Positions 1,855 to 19,893 of a stretch of 50,397 nt of DNA are shown here, piece by piece. This DNA is from Deltaproteobacteria bacterium (GTDB lineage Bacteria > Myxococcota_A > Polyangia > Polyangiales > JADJMO01), in contig JANYDK010000054.1 of NCBI GenBank assembly GCA_025363655.1, positions 1 to 50,397 on the forward strand, written 5' to 3'. A program made the translations under genes and the position numbers. Below the pieces are notes generated by a model. It saw only the letters and a list, made by a program, of their open reading frames with translations, ran no database searches and was not told where the DNA came from. Numbering within the stretch: the first letter of the stretch is position 1; each line of letters begins with the position of its first letter.

Positions 1855-2922
1855 ATGCTTCCCCCTGAACCTCGGCGCACGCGAAATTGGATGAGCTACC
1901 CCGTCGTGATCGGCGCTGTTGCGGCGCTGACGAGTGCGTCGTGCGCGGTCTCGAACGATCGATCCCCGGCGTCCGATTCACTCGACGCCGGCGGCGACGG
2001 CGGGTTCGCCTTCGACACCGGCAGGTCTGGTGACACGGGGACATCGAACGATGGCGGGCTGATCATCGACGGCGGCACGGATTCGGGGGCGCCGTTGGGC
2101 ACTTCCGTGATTTACGCAACGACGGACACCGAACTGTGGTCGATGGACCCCGCCACGAAAGCCGTGACCAAAATCGGCGCGTTCGACTTCGGGAGCGGGT
2201 CGGCCGAAAACATGACCGATGTCGCAGTCGACGCGGGCGGTGCGGTGTGGGTCAACTCGACGAATCACGTGTATCTGGCTGCACTCCCAGCCTCTGGGTC
2301 GGGCCCAGTGGTCCTCACCCTCAAGCTGACGTTGCCGAGTAGCTCGAAGTTCTACGCGCTCGGATTCGCGCCGGCGGGAGTTCTGGAGAGCGGCGAGGGA
2401 CTCGTCGCCGGGGACAGCCTGGGTGACCTCTATTACATCCCCGCCTCCTCGCCGACGCCGACCTTGCAGAAGCTCGGCGGCTTCGGTCCATGCAAGACGG
2501 GCGATCCCTCGCCGTGCAAGTCGGGCGACTTCTGGGAGCTCTCGGGAGACGTCGTCTTCTATTCGGTGGACGGTTCACCTCGAGGCTTGGCCACCCTACG
2601 GGCCTGTACCAAGAGTGCGTGCCAGAACACCAACGATGTCGTCGCGGAAGTCGACATGACGGCGCTCGCGACCAAGAACCCGTCGGCCAATCTCCGTAAG
2701 CAGATTCTCGGTAGCGGCACCGGTTTTTCGCGGATCTTCGGCGTCGGCGCCTGGGAAGACAAGGTGTACGGATTCTCCTTCGCCGAAAAGACGGTGCCGG
2801 CGCAGCTCGTCTCGATCGACGGGACTGGGACGGGCACGTCGTTGCAGTCCTTCGCGTCGTTGACCGGCGGTTGGACGGGCGCCGGAGTGACCACCAAAGC
2901 CAAGATCAGCGTCATCAAATGA
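1855..2922 (+). CDS. Lipoprotein with Asp/Gly linker and propeller-like domain
   Basis: I prefer ATG 1855 (355 aa): it gives a basic n-region (RRTR), a hydrophobic core and a lipobox-like TSASC. ATG 1891 is an alternative, and the frame extends upstream to a GTG at 1732 without signal-like sequence. Residues ~35-80 are a low-complexity Asp/Gly/Ser/Thr linker. The remainder has repeated short beta-type stretches, including a segment beginning VIYATTDTELWSMD, typical of outer-membrane-tethered propeller proteins. It stands alone between the Rieske gene and the small gene at 2939. No catalytic motif was seen. Confidence 0.75.
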   Translation: MLPPEPRRTRNWMSYPVVIGAVAALTSASCAVSNDRSPASDSLDAGGDGGFAFDTGRSGDTGTSNDGGLIIDGGTDSGAPLGTSVIYATTDTELWSMDPATKAVTKIGAFDFGSGSAENMTDVAVDAGGAVWVNSTNHVYLAALPASGSGPVVLTLKLTLPSSSKFYALGFAPAGVLESGEGLVAGDSLGDLYYIPASSPTPTLQKLGGFGPCKTGDPSPCKSGDFWELSGDVVFYSVDGSPRGLATLRACTKSACQNTNDVVAEVDMTALATKNPSANLRKQILGSGTGFSRIFGVGAWEDKVYGFSFAEKTVPAQLVSIDGTGTGTSLQSFASLTGGWTGAGVTTKAKISVIK

Positions 2923-2938
2923 CCTCGAGCTCGGTCGC

Positions 2939-3217
2939 ATGAACGCCCGTAAATCGGCATTGTTGCTGTTCGAAGGCACGCGATTTTGGATCGAGACCAC
3001 CGACGGCGGTAGGACGATGACGGTCGTGCAAACCGTGGCTGGGCGCAACGTCTCACTCGGCTCGATCCAGCTCGGCCTCGACTACTCTTCGAAGGCGGTG
3101 CGGCAACGAGATGAAGGCTTGCTGAGTCGGCTTGCTGCTCGTCTCTTCGCGGAGCGCGGCCGACGCCTCGCGCCAGCCACTATCGTGCATTTGGCTCCGA
3201 GGAGAATCGATTCATGA
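2939..3217 (+). CDS. Small hypothetical protein (92 aa)
   Basis: This is a short frame starting ATG 17 bp after the preceding stop. Its TGA overlaps the ATG of the lipoprotein at 3214 (ATGA), which is the main reason to believe it. The product has no signal peptide, membrane segment or Cys motif. It contains VVQTVAGRNVSLGSIQLGLD, then a basic helical tail (LLSRLAARLFAERGRR). I do not recognise the family. It could be a small cytosolic partner of the downstream lipoprotein operon, or a chance frame. Confidence 0.45.
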   Translation: MNARKSALLLFEGTRFWIETTDGGRTMTVVQTVAGRNVSLGSIQLGLDYSSKAVRQRDEGLLSRLAARLFAERGRRLAPATIVHLAPRRIDS

Positions 3218-4026
3218 ATACCTTCCGGCGTAATTTGGTCTCAGCCTCTCTTCGACACAGCGTGGTCGTGATCGCATGCCTGTCCCTCGTCGGCTGCGGC
3301 GGCAGGCTCTCGACCGCCGCCTTTGACGATCCTGGGCCGGTGGCCGACGCGTCATCGAGCGGCGACGCGAGCGTCGCAGACGGCTCTCCTTCCCCCGGCG
3401 ATTCGTCCGTGCCGCCGGGCTCCGACGCATCGATCAAGCCCGATACGGCCACCGGCCTCGATGCACGCGATGTCGGAGTGACCAAGTGCACCGACGATCG
3501 AGGGTGCGGCGGGCTCACACCCCACTGCGATCCGTCGACGGGCGCGTGCACGGGTTGCACCGCCGCGGTGTGCAAGCCAGCTGCGTTCGTCTGTGATCCC
3601 GCGTCGGGCGCCTGCGTCGAGTGCACGAGCGACGGCGACTGTCGAGGCGGCGTCTGCGATCTCGCGACCCACGCGTGTACGACGAAGTGCAGCGGCGCCG
3701 CGGGCTGTCGACCCCCGTCGGCTTGCGACCCGAGCTCGGGCACATGCGTCGAATGCCTCTCGGACAGCGCATGCCGCGGCGGGCGTTGCGACCCAGCCAC
3801 GCGCGCCTGCGTCGAGTGTTTGACGGTCTCCGACTGCGGTCCGGGCACGACGGTCTGCGATTCAATGCACACATGCACGTTGGAATGCACCGGCGAAGCG
3901 CAATGCGCGCCGTTTCGAGCGCACTGCGACCCGACGTCCAGCCTTTGCTACGAGTGCTATCGCAACGACCAGTGCGGACGCGGAGAAGTCTGTCAGGCCG
4001 ATCACACCTGTGGCGCTGGCGGCTGA
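3214..4026 (+). CDS. Cys-repeat lipoprotein
   Basis: This 270-aa product has a signal peptide ending in the lipobox LVGC (residues ~24-27), a Ser/Asp/Gly linker to ~residue 90, then at least seven Cys-rich units of the form C-D-P-x-[ST]-G-x-C-x-x-C and C-x-x-D-x-x-C. Nothing in it looks catalytic. Such proteins are abundant on myxobacterial surfaces; their ligands are generally unknown. A GGAG-type ribosome site lies in the end of the preceding small gene. Confidence 0.85.
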   Translation: MNTFRRNLVSASLRHSVVVIACLSLVGCGGRLSTAAFDDPGPVADASSSGDASVADGSPSPGDSSVPPGSDASIKPDTATGLDARDVGVTKCTDDRGCGGLTPHCDPSTGACTGCTAAVCKPAAFVCDPASGACVECTSDGDCRGGVCDLATHACTTKCSGAAGCRPPSACDPSSGTCVECLSDSACRGGRCDPATRACVECLTVSDCGPGTTVCDSMHTCTLECTGEAQCAPFRAHCDPTSSLCYECYRNDQCGRGEVCQADHTCGAGG

Positions 4027-4091: not shown

Positions 4092-5336
4092 ATGACCGAC
4101 GCGGCGAATGAGCCTCAGTCTTCCGAAGGTGCACGCGTGCCGCAGGCCGTTCCCAATGCACTTCTCAGCAAGGTGCCCCAGGTAACGGTCTTCTTTTGGA
4201 TCATCAAGGTCCTCTGCACGACTGTCGGCGAGACGGCATCGGATTTTCTCAACGTCAATCTCGGACTCGGCCTGTCGGGCACCTCCGTCGCTGCGGGGGT
4301 TTGCCTTCTCGCGGTGCTGGCGGTCCAATTCAAGGCACGAAAATACACGGCGGGTGTCTACTGGCTCGCCGTCGTACTGGTGAGCGTCTTCGGCACGCTC
4401 GTCACGGACATCTTGACGGACGGCCTCCATTTTCCACTGGAGGCGAGCACGGGCCTCTTCACGGTCGCACTCGGGCTCACCTTCGCCGTTTGGAATGCCA
4501 AGGAGGGCACTCTCTCGATTCATTCCATTTTGACGCCACGGCGCGAGGCGTTCTACTGGCTCGCCATCCTCTTCACCTTTGCGCTCGGCACGGCGACCGG
4601 CGATCTGATGGCCGAAAAACTCGGCCTCGGGTATCTCACGACGGGTCTCATCGTCTTGGGGGTGATCGCGGCGGCCGGAATCGCATGGCGGCTCGGGCTG
4701 AATTCGGTCCTCGGGTTCTGGATCGCCTACATCCTGACGCGCCCGCTCGGAGCGTCGATCGGCGACTACCTCACCCAGTCGAAGGCGGACGGGGGGCTGG
4801 GGCTGGGTGCGACGCTCACGAGCGCCGTGTTCCTTTCGGCGATTCTCCTCGTCGTCGTCTACCTCGGGGTGACTCGCCGCGACTTCATTGCCGAACCGCC
4901 ACCTCCGCCTGCCAATGAGAAGAAGCGAGCGGCGGTCCTTCAGCTCGTCGCGGTGCTGCTTCTCCTCTTGGTCGCGAGTGGAACAGGCTACTTCGCTAGA
5001 CACGCGCAGCTCCGAAGAGAAGCGCAGGCCGCGGTCACTCCCGATCGCCCCTTGGGAGATCTCTCGGACTTCCGCAAGATTGCCGACGACATGCTCGTGC
5101 TCGCTCGTGCCGGCGATTTCGCGGGCGTGAAGACGAGAGCCGACGACTTGGAGAGCGCTTGGGACCGCAATCAGGCACGCATGCAGCCGATGAATCCCGA
5201 GAAGTGGACGACCATGGACGGGGCCATCGACACCGTCCTCAAGAAGGTGCGGTCGTCATCGCCCGATGGGCCTGCGTGCGTCACCGCACTCCAAGAGCTT
5301 CTCACCGTCATCGACGGGTTCGACAAGCGAAAATAG
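4092..5336 (+). CDS. Multi-pass membrane protein (COG4705-like)
   Basis: This 414-aa product has about eight transmembrane helices in residues ~30-265. They are arranged as four related units, each with a conserved acidic signature in a helix: TTVGETASDFL, FGTLVTDILTDGL, LGTATGDLMAEKLG and LGASIGDYL. This matches the uncharacterised 'membrane-anchored protein' family COG4705. After a Pro-rich stretch (EPPPPP) there is one more helix (~280-300) and a soluble C-terminal domain of ~110 residues that I do not recognise; it seems to be an extension of the usual family length. The conserved Asp/Glu and Thr in membrane helices suggest ion or small-solute handling, which is inference only. Confidence 0.82.
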   Translation: MTDAANEPQSSEGARVPQAVPNALLSKVPQVTVFFWIIKVLCTTVGETASDFLNVNLGLGLSGTSVAAGVCLLAVLAVQFKARKYTAGVYWLAVVLVSVFGTLVTDILTDGLHFPLEASTGLFTVALGLTFAVWNAKEGTLSIHSILTPRREAFYWLAILFTFALGTATGDLMAEKLGLGYLTTGLIVLGVIAAAGIAWRLGLNSVLGFWIAYILTRPLGASIGDYLTQSKADGGLGLGATLTSAVFLSAILLVVVYLGVTRRDFIAEPPPPPANEKKRAAVLQLVAVLLLLLVASGTGYFARHAQLRREAQAAVTPDRPLGDLSDFRKIADDMLVLARAGDFAGVKTRADDLESAWDRNQARMQPMNPEKWTTMDGAIDTVLKKVRSSSPDGPACVTALQELLTVIDGFDKRK

Positions 5337-5603: not shown

Positions 5604-7103
5604 ATGCTCTTGCGCGTGAAGTACATATCCAACGCTTCCCTCGTCGTCGTGCTCGCCGCCGGATGTGCCAACGGAGGATCCGACGGGGCAGTTGCCAGAA
5701 CGGATTCTGCCATCGACGGGACCATGGATACGGGAGGTGGCGCCGGGGCGTGTCCGCCGTGCGTGACCGACGCTGATTGCGCGAAAGGGTCTGCCTGCGC
5801 GCAGTTCGCTGGCGACATCTACTGCGCTCCGCTCTGTCCGAAGGGTGATGAGTGCAGTTCCGATCGCGCGTGTAGTTCGTCGACGGGCGTCGCGGGCGAC
5901 CAAGTCAGCGTGTGCATTCCACGCGGTGACGTCTGCGGTTCGGTCGTACCGCCGAGTCCGGACGCATCGGCGCCCGACACGAGCGGTCCTTCCGGAGAAG
6001 ATACGTCGGGCGGAGTCCCGCCGGGTGATACCGGTGGCGGCGACCATTGCGGCACGCTCGTCGGTCCCTCGGTCGCGGCAGGCTGCACCTGCGCGAGCGG
6101 ACACACCTGCGGAGCCAACGGCTGCTATTCGAGTTGGTGGTGCGACACGGCGACCAACAAGTGCCACGCGCCGCCGGGGACTGGGACGTGCGGGGGCGGA
6201 GGCACCGACGCCGGACCCCACGTAGACAGCGGACCCGGCGGCGACGCTGGGTTGCCGACCGGGACGGTAGGCCCAGCGGGCGGCACGACGAGTCGCCTCT
6301 ATTTCACGGTCGTCGGCGATACGCGGCCCCCCGTCATCAACGACACGAAAGGGTATCCCGTCGCCGTCATCGACAAGATCTACTCCGACATCGCGGCACT
6401 CTCACCCGTTCCGCTCTTCTCGGTCTCCACCGGTGACTACTGCTTCGCACAGGCCGCGAGCAGCGAATCGGGACCGCAAATCGACATGTACATGGCGGCT
6501 CGCGCGAGGTTCCCGGGCGCCTGGTTTCCGGCCATCGGGAATCACGAGTGCACCGGCGCCGTCACTTCGAACTGTGGTCCGGGCACGACGGATGGTCTGA
6601 CGGTGAACTACACCAACTTCATGTCGAAGATGCTCGGGCCCATCGGCAAGTCTGAGCCTTACTATTCGATTCGAATCAACGCGACGGACGGCAGCTGGAC
6701 ATCGAAGTTCGTTTTCGTCGCCGCCAACGCGTGGTCCACGGCACAACAAACGTGGCTCGACAGCACACTTGCCGCACCGACGACGTACACGTTCGTCATT
6801 CGTCACGAGCCGGCCGCAGCCTCGACCGCGCCCGGGGTGAAGCCATCGGAAGCAATCATGGCGAAGTACCCGTACACGCTCTCCCTCGTAGGCCACACCC
6901 ACACGTACGGACGAAAGGGCGCCCGCGAAGTCGTCATCGGGAACGGAGGCGCCCCGCTCACCGGCACGGTGAACTTCGGCTTCGCGCTGCTCTCGCAGAG
7001 AGCGGACGGAGCCATTCGGGTCGACATGATCGACTACTCGACCGGCGCGTCCGACCCCTCCTTTGGCTTCGCGGTGCATCCCGATGGCTCGCCAGCCCCT
7101 TGA
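5604..7103 (+). CDS. Secreted calcineurin-like metallophosphoesterase lipoprotein
   Basis: The start chosen is ATG 5604 (499 aa), giving a signal ending in the lipobox LAAGC; the frame upstream (from 5574) lacks signal-like sequence. Residues ~30-225 are a Cys-rich and Asp/Gly-rich stalk. The catalytic domain follows, with the metallophosphatase series VVGDTR, STGDY, GNHE, a later RHEP and GHTH, which supply the metal ligands Asp, Asp, Asn, His, His. This is a binuclear metal phosphatase or purple-acid-phosphatase-like fold anchored outside the cell. The substrate is not deducible. The upstream 267 bp (5337-5603) holds no recognisable gene. Confidence 0.87.
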   Translation: MLLRVKYISNASLVVVLAAGCANGGSDGAVARTDSAIDGTMDTGGGAGACPPCVTDADCAKGSACAQFAGDIYCAPLCPKGDECSSDRACSSSTGVAGDQVSVCIPRGDVCGSVVPPSPDASAPDTSGPSGEDTSGGVPPGDTGGGDHCGTLVGPSVAAGCTCASGHTCGANGCYSSWWCDTATNKCHAPPGTGTCGGGGTDAGPHVDSGPGGDAGLPTGTVGPAGGTTSRLYFTVVGDTRPPVINDTKGYPVAVIDKIYSDIAALSPVPLFSVSTGDYCFAQAASSESGPQIDMYMAARARFPGAWFPAIGNHECTGAVTSNCGPGTTDGLTVNYTNFMSKMLGPIGKSEPYYSIRINATDGSWTSKFVFVAANAWSTAQQTWLDSTLAAPTTYTFVIRHEPAAASTAPGVKPSEAIMAKYPYTLSLVGHTHTYGRKGAREVVIGNGGAPLTGTVNFGFALLSQRADGAIRVDMIDYSTGASDPSFGFAVHPDGSPAP

Positions 7104-7113
7104 GATCCTCGAG

Positions 7114-7566
7114 ATGGCGATGACGGCGCCTCGAGGGAAGGTCGTCGCTCGCGCGCGGGCTGCTCTACGAATGCTGCTCGAAAGTCGATCTTGGTTCGTC
7201 GCGCGCCTCGTGCTCGCTTGGCTGCACACGTTCCCGGCGAGGAAGCACCTGGCCGAGCTCGCCGCGGCGCCCTCTCTGGACGAAGCCTGGAAGGGACTTG
7301 GAGCCCTGCTGGCCGTGATCGTCTTCCTGCTTCCCGGCGAACTGGCGAGAGGTGCTCTGCGCCGCGCGGGGCGGTGGCCAGGCATGGTCACGACGTCGCT
7401 ATTCGTGCTCGCAATCGTGCATCTCGTCCCAGCGGTGGACCACCTCCCGCGATGGGTCGTGCACCCGAGCTTCTCGGACGGTTGGCGCGGGATCGGCGCG
7501 GTGGCCGCCACGACGGCTTTCTTCTTCGGTGGGCTGCGCCACGGAGTCGCGCGCCGTCAGCGGTAG
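7114..7566 (+). CDS. Small membrane protein, unknown function
   Basis: ATG 7114 gives 150 aa; an in-frame ATG at 7063 would overlap the preceding gene. The protein has hydrophobic stretches around residues 30-45, 62-80, 95-115 and 130-145, consistent with three or four membrane helices. No family was recognised. Its last ~5 codons run into a different-frame lipoprotein remnant that begins near 7553, so its C-terminus may have been set by a recombination event. Confidence 0.6.
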   Translation: MAMTAPRGKVVARARAALRMLLESRSWFVARLVLAWLHTFPARKHLAELAAAPSLDEAWKGLGALLAVIVFLLPGELARGALRRAGRWPGMVTTSLFVLAIVHLVPAVDHLPRWVVHPSFSDGWRGIGAVAATTAFFFGGLRHGVARRQR

Positions 7567-7690
7567 CGTCACATTGACGGCCTACTCGGCGGCCACCAGC
7601 CTCGACGGCACGCTGGATGTGACGTTCTCCACCGGCAGCGCCAAGGGCACGTTCCACGCGGTGTATTGCGCCGCGGGGAACGAGCTCTGA
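7553..7690 (+). pseudogene. C-terminal remnant of a secreted lipoprotein
   Basis: In a frame different from the gene ending at 7566, the bases encode about 45 residues starting SGSVTLTAYSAATSLDG and ending GTFHAVYCAAGNEL. The pattern of V/T/L strands, then F-D/D-V-T-F, then G-T-F-x-A-x-x-C is a recurring C-terminal form of myxobacterial lipoproteins. There is no start, signal or N-terminal domain, so this looks like the tail left after a deletion or rearrangement. Confidence 0.5.
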
Positions 7691-7705
7691 GCAGCCTCGC
7701 GATGT

Positions 7706-8416
7706 CTACTTGCAGTAGCCAATCTGCTTTGCGCCACTCTTGATGGCCTGACACTTCTTGCCACCCGTGCAGTCGGCGTCGGCCTCGCAGACGATGAACT
7801 GCGTGCCTGAGCACGACGCCGCACAGACGGTCCCGAGGGCGGGGAAGACTTCCTCGTAGGTACATCCCGTACGAACCTTGGGGGTACCGTTGCCGCAACA
7901 GACCTTGCCCGTGCCGCACATCTGCGGCTCGTCGCACTCCCAGCTGCTGCCGGCCTTGGGCGTGGTCGTGGGGCACTTGCTGCCGCCGGCGATGCACGAA
8001 GAGGCCGGCGTCGAGCCGCTCGGCGTGTCGCAACAGATTTGCCCATTGCTGCACGTCGCCGACGAGCCCGCGTCGCCACCGGCGCCAGCGCCCGGACAGT
8101 AGGGGCCAGGGACCACGCCCGCGTCGCCGGCTGCGATCGGGTGCAGCGTCGGGTCGGAGCCGCACGTGCCCCCCGCGTCTGTGCCCGTGTCGGTGGGCGT
8201 GCCTGTGTCGGTGGGCGTACCCGTATCGGCGGCCGTGCCCGTGTCGTCCGGCGTGCTCGTGTCGGCGTGCGTGCCCGTGTCGGCGGGCGTGGTGTCGGTA
8301 CCACCGGTGCCGGTATCCGCCGGCGTCGTGCCGCCACCGTCGGAGCTACTGCTGCAAGCGGCAGCCGACGCGAACGAGAAGGAACAAAGAAGGAGAAAGA
8401 GAGCGGTGCGTTGCAT
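7706..8416 (-). CDS. Lipoprotein with DTGT-type repeat linker and Cys-rich domain
   Basis: This 236-aa product has a signal peptide ending in a lipobox-like SAAAC (Cys 20). A long linker follows, made of D-T-G-T and P-x-D-T-G units and encoded by an 18-bp tandem repeat. The C-terminal ~140 residues hold about 20 Cys with motifs such as CCGNG, CEADADC and CC(D/G). It is convergent with the genes ending at 7566/7690. Probably outer-surface; no catalytic residues were seen. Confidence 0.85.
   Translation of the reverse strand: MQRTALFLLLCSFSFASAAACSSSSDGGGTTPADTGTGGTDTTPADTGTHADTSTPDDTGTAADTGTPTDTGTPTDTGTDAGGTCGSDPTLHPIAAGDAGVVPGPYCPGAGAGGDAGSSATCSNGQICCDTPSGSTPASSCIAGGSKCPTTTPKAGSSWECDEPQMCGTGKVCCGNGTPKVRTGCTYEEVFPALGTVCAASCSGTQFIVCEADADCTGGKKCQAIKSGAKQIGYCK
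8181..8288 (-). repeat. Six 18-bp tandem repeats coding for a lipoprotein linker
   Basis: Six units of 18 bp (8181-8198, 8199-8216, 8217-8234, 8235-8252, 8253-8270, 8271-8288) follow GTGCCCGTGTCGGTGGGC with small changes. They sit in frame in the gene on the minus strand, so unit gain or loss would change linker length by six residues without a frameshift. Confidence 0.85.
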
Positions 8417-17625: not shown

Positions 17626-17634
17626 AGAGGAGGG
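17626..17634 (+). promoter_or_regulatory. Strong Shine-Dalgarno before the CBS gene
   Basis: GAGGAGGGG ends 5 nt before ATG 17640 and fixes that start. It is among the strongest ribosome sites in the window. The ~280 bp upstream (17360-17639) hold no gene. Confidence 0.65.
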
Positions 17635-17639
17635 GTTTC

Positions 17640-18143
17640 ATGACGACGTCACCTGTCGTAACGAAAAAATCGCCAACGTCGGCTGCGAACGGCCTAGCCG
17701 AGTCGGAGGCCGTGACCGTGAGCGCGACCCATCAACGTGCGATCTCGCGTTCTTCGAGGCTGACTGTTCGCGACTACATGTCGACAGGCGTCCAGCCGAT
17801 CGCGTCGAACAGCACGATGGCCGATGCTCACTTGCTGATTCGATCTCGACACGTCCGCCACCTCCCGGTCGTCGATGGCACCAAGATCGTCGGCGTCGTC
17901 TCGCTGCACGATCTGCACTTCGCCGAGAGTCGAGGTCTTTCGCCAGCGACTCCGATCGCCGACGTGAAGGACCTCGCCGAGCTCGTGAGCGCCGATGCAC
18001 CGCTCGACGTCGTCGCGCGCGACATGGCGGCGCGCAAACACGCAGTGGTCGTCGTCATGGAGCGAGGCTGCATGATCGGCATCTTCACCACCGTCGATGC
18101 GCTCCGCGCGCTCGCGGATCTCGCGGCGCCGGAAGCGAAATGA
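17640..18143 (+). CDS. Two-CBS-domain protein
   Basis: This 167-aa cytosolic protein has a short disordered N-terminus (~40 residues), then two CBS units. The first has VRDYMSTGVQPIASNSTMAD and RHLPVVDGTKIVGVVSLHDL; the second has DAPLDVVARDMAARKHAVVV and MIGIFTTVDALRAL. CBS pairs bind adenine nucleotides or related ligands in a cleft between the units (family knowledge). The TGA overlaps the ATG of a Ser/Thr-kinase gene (ATGA), so both are translated from one message and probably work together, for example with the CBS unit sensing nucleotide state. Confidence 0.93.
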   Translation: MTTSPVVTKKSPTSAANGLAESEAVTVSATHQRAISRSSRLTVRDYMSTGVQPIASNSTMADAHLLIRSRHVRHLPVVDGTKIVGVVSLHDLHFAESRGLSPATPIADVKDLAELVSADAPLDVVARDMAARKHAVVVVMERGCMIGIFTTVDALRALADLAAPEAK

Positions 18144-19099
18144 GCTCCGCGCCTCGAGCGACGATCGGCGGGCACTATCGATTGGTTCGACCGATCGGCT
18201 GCGGTGGCATGGCGATCGTCTGGGAGGCAGTCGATCTCGCGTCCGGTCGCAGAGTCGCGGTGAAGCTCCTTCGCGACGCCGCGCACCGCCGCGAGAACGT
18301 CGAGCTCCTCCATGCCGAGGCTCGCAGCATCGCCCGCGCCAGCGCGCCTCACGTGGTCGAGCTCCTCGAAGCTGGTGACGACGACGGTGCCGGTCCATTC
18401 CTCGTCCTCGAGCTCCTCCACGGTGAGGATCTCGCCTCCTTTCTCGGTCGCGTGGCTCGTGTTCCCGCCGCGCTGGCCATCGAGATCGCGATGCAGATCG
18501 CCGAGGGTATCTCGCACGCCCACGCGCGCGGCCTCGCACACGGAGACCTCAAACCGGAGAACGTCTTCCTCGAGATCGTGAATGGCGTCGTCTCGATCAA
18601 GATCATCGTCTTCGGCATTGCGCATCGCAGCCAGCACGCGCCCGAGTCCACTCCACCTCCAGGGAGCCGCTCCTGCACCTACGGCACGCTTCCCTACATG
18701 GCTCCCGAGCGGTTGCAGGGCGGCGCACCCGATCCACGGAGCGACGTCTGGTCCGTCGGCGTCATCCTCTACGAGATGCTCGCGGGCCGCCTCCCCTACC
18801 AAACCGACGACGATCCTGCCGAGCAGCTGACCATCCTCACATTCGACGAAGTCGCGCCGATCGCCGAGCTCGCGACTGGCATCTCGCCGTCGCTGTCCCA
18901 GTTGGTCGCGCAGCTCTCGTCCCCCGATCCGGAGCTTCGGCCCGCGGACGGAGCCGCCGTGGCGTCGGCGCTCGCGCGAGAGCTTCGCCACACATCCACC
19001 GACGAATCCGGTTCGTTCGTGCGTGCAGGTGCAAGCACGTGTCCGCACCGTCTCGCCGAGACCGTCGCATGCGGGGGCGGGTCGTCGCACCAAGGCTGA
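18140..19099 (+). CDS. Ser/Thr kinase-like protein lacking the DFG aspartate
   Basis: ATG 18140 (319 aa) is set by overlap with the CBS gene. Kinase motifs in order: glycine loop IGCGGMAIVWEA (19-30), VAVK with K42, helix-C E60, catalytic loop HGDLKPEN (H134, D136, K138, N141), then IVFG in place of the metal-binding DFG (V157, codon GTC at 18608-18610), APE at ~184-186 and SDVWSVGVILYEML. The HRD arginine is Gly. No membrane helix; the ~40-residue tail is Ser/Cys-rich. Loss of the DFG Asp argues for a pseudokinase or very low activity, yet the frame is intact and all other motifs are kept. A sequencing error (GAC to GTC) is the simple alternative. Confidence 0.9.
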   Translation: MSSAPRATIGGHYRLVRPIGCGGMAIVWEAVDLASGRRVAVKLLRDAAHRRENVELLHAEARSIARASAPHVVELLEAGDDDGAGPFLVLELLHGEDLASFLGRVARVPAALAIEIAMQIAEGISHAHARGLAHGDLKPENVFLEIVNGVVSIKIIVFGIAHRSQHAPESTPPPGSRSCTYGTLPYMAPERLQGGAPDPRSDVWSVGVILYEMLAGRLPYQTDDDPAEQLTILTFDEVAPIAELATGISPSLSQLVAQLSSPDPELRPADGAAVASALARELRHTSTDESGSFVRAGASTCPHRLAETVACGGGSSHQG

Positions 19100-19176
19100 G
19101 CTAGGTGCGGCGGGGAGGCGATCAGGGGTCGACCTCTGGCGCCGTCGCTCACGCCGCTCGCCTACACTCCTCCCTC

Positions 19177-19893
19177 ATGATCGAGCTCTTCTATTGGCCA
19201 ACCATCCAAGGACGCGGTGAGCTCATCCGGCTCGCCCTCGAAGACTCCGCAACCCCCTACGTCGACGTCGCCCGAGGCCCGGGTGGCATCTCCGCGATGC
19301 AGGCCGCGATGTCCGCCGAGCACGGGAAGGCAGACGCGCTCCCGTTCGCACCGCCCTTCATCCGCGATGGCGACGTGCAGCTCGCGCACACGGCGCTCGT
19401 CCTGCACTACCTCGGCGCGCGCATCGGGCTTGCTCCCGACGACGAGCGCGGCCGGATGCACGCGCACCAGCTCCAGCTGTCGATCACCGACTTCCATTCG
19501 GAGATCCACGACACCCATCATCCTCTGGGGTCGTCTCTCTATTACGAAGATCAGAAGTCCGAAGCGCTGGCGCGGACCAAGGTGTTCGTGCGTGATCGCA
19601 TCCCGAAGTTCCTCGGCTATTTCGAGCGCGAGGTGCTCCGCGGCGGAGAGGCGACGCTGCTCGGTCGACACTCGTATGTCGATCTGTCGCTCTTCCAAAC
19701 CGTCGAGGGTCTGCGCTACGCGTTCCCGCGCGCGACTGCGGCGATCGAGCCGAAGCTTCCGGCGGTGATGGCGTTGCACGATCGCGTCGCGTCGCGTCCC
19801 AACGTTGCCGCGTATCTTCGCTCGGAGAGGCGGCGACCGTTTTCCGAGCAGGGAATCTTCCGTCGGTATCCGGAGCTCGACGTCGTGCCCTGA
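19177..19893 (+). CDS. Glutathione S-transferase family protein
   Basis: The ATG at 19177 (238 aa) begins the typical thioredoxin-fold start IELFYWPTIQGRGELIRLAL, where Tyr is the likely glutathione-activating residue. A GDVQLAHT-type segment (the 'ES/QS' glutathione gamma-Glu site region) follows, then an all-helical C-terminal domain. The order resembles sigma/S-crystallin-type GSTs. Cytosolic conjugation or isomerisation of electrophiles is family knowledge; substrate unknown. Separate from the kinase gene by 77 bp. Confidence 0.9.
   Translation: MIELFYWPTIQGRGELIRLALEDSATPYVDVARGPGGISAMQAAMSAEHGKADALPFAPPFIRDGDVQLAHTALVLHYLGARIGLAPDDERGRMHAHQLQLSITDFHSEIHDTHHPLGSSLYYEDQKSEALARTKVFVRDRIPKFLGYFEREVLRGGEATLLGRHSYVDLSLFQTVEGLRYAFPRATAAIEPKLPAVMALHDRVASRPNVAAYLRSERRRPFSEQGIFRRYPELDVVP

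Follow-up and report, generated by a model that had tools for sequence, protein, structure and literature searches.

A CBS-pair protein gene overlapping the gene for a Hanks-type kinase without the DFG aspartate in a kinase-rich Polyangiales genome

Results

The window analyzed here, a 50,397-nucleotide stretch of DNA from a draft genome of the Polyangiales, carries on its forward strand a gene for a CBS-pair protein that overlaps the gene for a Hanks-type Ser/Thr kinase by the four bases ATGA, and this kinase shows an isolated loss of the DFG aspartate in an otherwise intact domain. The most likely reading, which we hold tentatively and in which function is inferred, is that the two genes form a bicistron for a CBS protein resembling a sensor and for a kinase with an impaired metal site and a true valine at position 157. 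The CBS-kinase pair is most likely real and restricted to one lineage, and its kinase may still bind ATP.

The CBS gene (17640 to 18143; P0002, 167 amino acids) is preceded by the Shine-Dalgarno sequence AGGAGG at 17628 to 17633, six bases upstream of its ATG at 17640, and contains two CBS matches (17766 to 17915 and 17985 to 18116). The kinase gene (18140 to 19099; P0001, 319 amino acids) starts in the ATGA at 18140 to 18143, which also holds the CBS stop codon, as the initial annotation had claimed. That annotation had further placed the CBS ribosome site among the best in the window, a fair description: a window scan found four sites at which AGGAGG stands before the start of an open reading frame of at least 90 amino acids, and this is one of them. 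Together, the overlap and the strong ribosome site point to coupled synthesis of the CBS protein and the kinase. Base composition by codon position was coding-like for both genes (GC of 0.66, 0.49, and 0.76 at the three positions in the CBS gene and 0.73, 0.52, and 0.79 in the kinase gene), and a sigma-70 scan returned no promoter-like site. Downstream of the kinase gene, on the same strand, lies a gene with a glutathione S-transferase C-terminal domain (19174 to 19893).

P0001 matched the Pfam Pkinase profile (PF00069) at 147.1 bits, against a curated cutoff of 31.7, over profile positions 1 to 253 of 263; this full domain above the cutoff identifies it as a Hanks-type Ser/Thr kinase, and the protein consists of the kinase domain alone and a short tail of low confidence. 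The glycine loop, Lys42, Glu60, His134, Asp136, Asn141, Phe158-Gly159, and the APE glutamate (Glu190) are all retained. In an alignment with the first 128 kinase loci of its own genome (130 rows), P0001 keeps 18 of 20 near-invariant kinase columns, the departures being R135G and D157V. The former falls in the catalytic loop HGDLKPENV (18539 to 18565), where Gly135 replaces the HRD arginine and Asp136 and Asn141 are kept; the latter makes the DFG site read VFG (GTC TTC GGC, 18608 to 18616). HGD in place of HRD fits a kinase without control by activation-loop phosphorylation, and the DFG aspartate binds magnesium. The initial annotation had read the glycine loop, the lysine, the helix-C glutamate, and VFG for DFG correctly, but it had called HGD a kept motif, although the HRD arginine is a glycine. 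By virtue of Val157, P0001 is a pseudokinase under a sequence definition that takes loss of the VAIK lysine, the HRD aspartate, or the DFG aspartate as the mark of the class (accessible text of PMC12599244).

An AlphaFold2 model built from 28 sequences predicted a kinase fold with confidence (mean pLDDT, 82; pTM, 0.83); the activation loop and the tail scored low, and such a model cannot show metal binding. Its nearest solved folds were Mycobacterium tuberculosis PknA and PknB (6b2q; TM score by target, 0.89), and the nearest solved sequence was PknA (7.8e-38). With 18 of 20 columns retained and a confident predicted fold, the kinase gene does not look decayed. The intact remainder of the kinase also fits a sequence error or a very recent change: the departure is confined to one codon (GTC, 18608 to 18610) that a single base change would turn into Asp, the assembly is a draft of 150 contigs, and the genus is represented by one genome in our comparison. 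It is conceivable, if somewhat unlikely, that Val157 is a sequence error or a strain-level variant, the population having Asp and the gene encoding an ordinary active kinase. Simple arithmetic speaks against this, as an error would strike at least one of 169 such codons with a probability of about 0.005 if the per-base rate were 1e-5 and of about 0.045 if it were 1e-4, and so does HGD, which puts the catalytic site off the norm elsewhere too.

Loss of the DFG aspartate is rare among the kinases that we read in the same genome. From 168 loci (8 + 120 + 40) we obtained 173 aligned rows, or 172 distinct rows after removal of one duplicate, and 169 of these carry a residue at the position in question (the genome's kinase total is at least 155 among the matches listed). 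Aspartate occupies it in 166, glycine in 2, and valine in P0001 only, making 3 losses in 169 domains. Both glycine cases (L163 and L281) lack the HRD aspartate as well and are decayed at several motifs; L217, also decayed, is without the HRD aspartate. The closest paralogue of P0001 in the genome is 38% identical. A glycine in HRD, unique to P0001 among the first 128 loci, was rejected as a distinguishing feature once 4 of 169 domains on the 168 loci were found to have it. Three loci look like true pseudokinases: L163 (G000:C79:16950-18050) reads HRR with GFD, L281 (G000:C38:94900-96100) reads HGA with GLG, and L217 (G000:C49:76250-77450) reads HLR. At L174 (G000:C84:27650-28800), an in-frame TAG interrupts the kinase domain, and the halves align as two rows.

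The linkage itself was set against chance. The genome holds 11 CBS-domain loci (21 domain matches, grouped) and, in 9.0 Mb, at least 155 kinase matches among those listed, which gives a range of 155 to 248 kinases (matches listed versus first-look candidates). Under the assumptions of a gene every 1.15 kb and of 60% of neighbors on the same strand, we estimated the probability that at least one of the 11 CBS genes has a same-strand kinase gene next downstream at 0.12 to 0.19. A kinase is found no more than 2 kb from three of the 11 CBS loci, against an expected 1.0 to 1.5 (P for three or more, 0.06 to 0.18). Adjacency to a kinase is, by chance, no more than modestly unlikely in this kinase-rich genome, and the linked CBS gene, which is not beyond chance by itself, is weak evidence; the accessible text of PMC2887360 advises caution over gene proximity to kinases in myxobacterial genomes. 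That caution, the sheer number of kinases, the three CBS loci found near kinases, and the decayed kinases L163, L217, and L281 all favor another view, that one kinase out of a great many recently lost its function next to a CBS gene that lies there by chance, with no special mechanism. Against such a loss stand the direct same-strand overlap behind a strong ribosome site and a kinase without other sign of decay, and we consider it unlikely.

Two further CBS genes were considered as copies of the pair and rejected: one on contig C61 (L244), which has a same-strand kinase downstream but no overlap with it and whose protein is absent from the P0002 matches, and one on contig C144, which has a divergent kinase (L147 and L245). 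The kinases beside these CBS genes read DFG or DWG. At L244, the CBS gene (4178 to 4594, minus strand) lies between two ordinary kinases (2247 to 3890, minus strand; 6248 to 8176, plus strand), one with DFG and one with DWG.

P0002 contains two stretches that match PF00571 in Pfam and is by this two-domain content a CBS-pair (Bateman) protein. The G, F, T, and D of the CBS2 motif G-x-F-T-x-x-D are present in all 31 aligned CBS sequences, P0002 included, and S/T-x-x-D occurs in both of its CBS domains. In CBS1, 26 of the 31 sequences have an arginine where P0002 alone has His90, which makes even nucleotide binding by P0002 uncertain. The nearest solved relatives are AcuB-like or stand-alone two-CBS proteins (5awe, 9s4w, and 2ef7), at weak similarity (best, 1.2e-11). 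Four genes scanned beside or near CBS relatives encode two universal stress proteins (L029 and L037) and two response-regulator receivers (L029 and L034), neighbors that indicate a stress and signaling context. P0002 is a probable adenine-nucleotide or energy/stress sensor.

Relatives of the kinase were sought at three taxonomic levels that take in its own genome: 5 genomes of the family, 183 of the order, and 317 of the class, with 12 and 7 candidates per genome scored in the two larger sets. No orthologue of P0001 was found in the 317 class genomes or in one genome-contig scan, outside matches being at most 42% identical. Among the candidates scored, other genomes of the class gave at best matches of 38 to 42% identity, no better in kind than the paralogue in the same genome; the genome-contig scan kept 80 loci, with best segments at most 41% identical and a best named match in a Polyangiaceae bacterium (36%). 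Valine at the DFG aspartate position was absent from the 98 kinase rows outside the genome (loci L039 to L122; Asp in 72, Gly in 18, and a gap in 8), and the open reading frames of these loci gave no CBS match at E values up to 10. Many Streptomyces and Kitasatospora loci in L095 to L118 have a pseudokinase domain with HGE, GFG, and mostly Thr for the VAIK lysine.

Of 56 genomes searched, its own among them, 54 had CBS relatives, whose identity to P0002 in other genomes reached 43%, and a genome-contig scan with the CBS protein gave no match. At 28 of 29 CBS loci (L010 to L038), flanks of up to 1.5 kb held no adjoining kinase. L017 (G042) was rejected as a second pair: there, at the end of a contig, a gap separates the CBS gene from a different kinase on its 3' side, and the genes do not overlap; L016 and L034, from the same genus, have no kinase at the corresponding place. 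A search of the 317 class genomes for the coupled arrangement (end of the CBS gene, ATG, and glycine loop of the kinase) matched one, the genome of the window; it required exact motif codons and could miss divergent pairs. A conserved CBS-pseudokinase module, one that recurs in other genomes, is thus not what we found. The initial annotation had looked to homologues for conservation of the valine and of the gene overlap; with no orthologues, neither Val157 nor the pairing can be shown to be selected.

Discussion

In the reading that we favor, a stand-alone CBS-pair protein, probably a sensor of adenine nucleotides or of energy or stress, would be made together with the kinase and would interact with it. 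The kinase would retain its fold and ATP pocket, would be inactive or nearly so, and may serve as a scaffold or binding switch under CBS control, in loose likeness to the kinase on which the CBS gamma subunit of AMP-activated protein kinase acts in trans. Counting for a switch, the valine of P0001 is unique in 169 domains, the other two losses of the DFG aspartate are accompanied by loss of the HRD aspartate, and HGD for HRD is a second departure in the catalytic site. The switch reading is weakened by the lack of an orthologue with valine and of a conserved pairing. When the initial annotation proposed a nucleotide-responsive switch that uses the kinase fold for binding only, it was right about the overlap, about a fold and motifs intact bar the DFG aspartate, and about a CBS partner, whose CBS2 motif is kept as in all 31 sequences; conservation of the pair did not follow, and "binding only" is not secured, because a kinase without only the DFG aspartate can remain active, as CASK does.

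P0001 could accordingly be an atypical active kinase that transfers phosphate without the DFG aspartate, through Asn141 or with no metal, in the manner of CASK, and that the CBS protein regulates. In favor of this, its glycine loop, beta-3 lysine, HRD aspartate, and asparagine are intact; CASK is exceptional, and the accessible literature offered no bacterial precedent, which leaves an active kinase improbable. Quite doubtful, too, is a bacterial two-protein energy switch in which a CBS adenine-nucleotide sensor would control a coupled non-RD kinase whose ATP binding dispenses with the DFG metal site and which either passes on a conformational signal or carries out metal-independent phosphotransfer. 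If real, the pair would parallel in bacteria, by analogy, the control that a CBS protein exerts on a kinase in trans, and it would exemplify loss of the DFG aspartate alone in a bacterial kinase, in a field where bacterial pseudokinases are largely unexplored by experiment (accessible text of PMC12599244). For now, the pair is a singleton, its key residue known from one draft genome, and a true switch, a recent loss, and a sequence error are all conceivable explanations.

Literature searches on Hanks-type kinase operons with a CBS domain and on CBS domains with serine/threonine kinases in myxobacteria found nothing, and one on pseudokinases with CBS domains in bacteria gave no such pair in titles and abstract openings; among the matches listed for bacterial CBS/Bateman proteins and AMP-activated protein kinase, all concerned the latter. 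The accessible main text of the bacterial pseudokinase review PMC12599244 does not mention CBS. Its families ActPs1-3, GLW, CP1, DYD, and DLHK share with P0001 a bacterial Ser/Thr kinase fold with a catalytic residue lost, but there they are grouped by divergence at all three motifs or at the motifs that bind ATP and metal, whereas P0001 loses the DFG aspartate only. CASK, a pseudokinase without the DFG aspartate that is nevertheless active (accessible text of PMC4718504), has the VAIK lysine and glycine loop intact, as P0001 does; unlike P0001, it is a eukaryotic MAGUK protein from an unrelated context.

P0002 resembles the AcuB-like or stand-alone two-CBS proteins weakly and differs in that CBS domains are the only ones that Pfam finds in it. 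The kinase domains nearest to P0001 in both sequence and fold, those of M. tuberculosis PknA and PknB, differ in that P0001 is a kinase domain alone and has HGD and VFG rather than HRD and DFG. In AMP-activated protein kinase, a CBS gamma subunit regulates the kinase in trans, and here, too, a separate CBS protein is made with a Ser/Thr kinase; the present protein has two CBS domains, not four, and its kinase lacks the DFG aspartate. Any regulation in trans would be a likeness of analogy and not of kinship.
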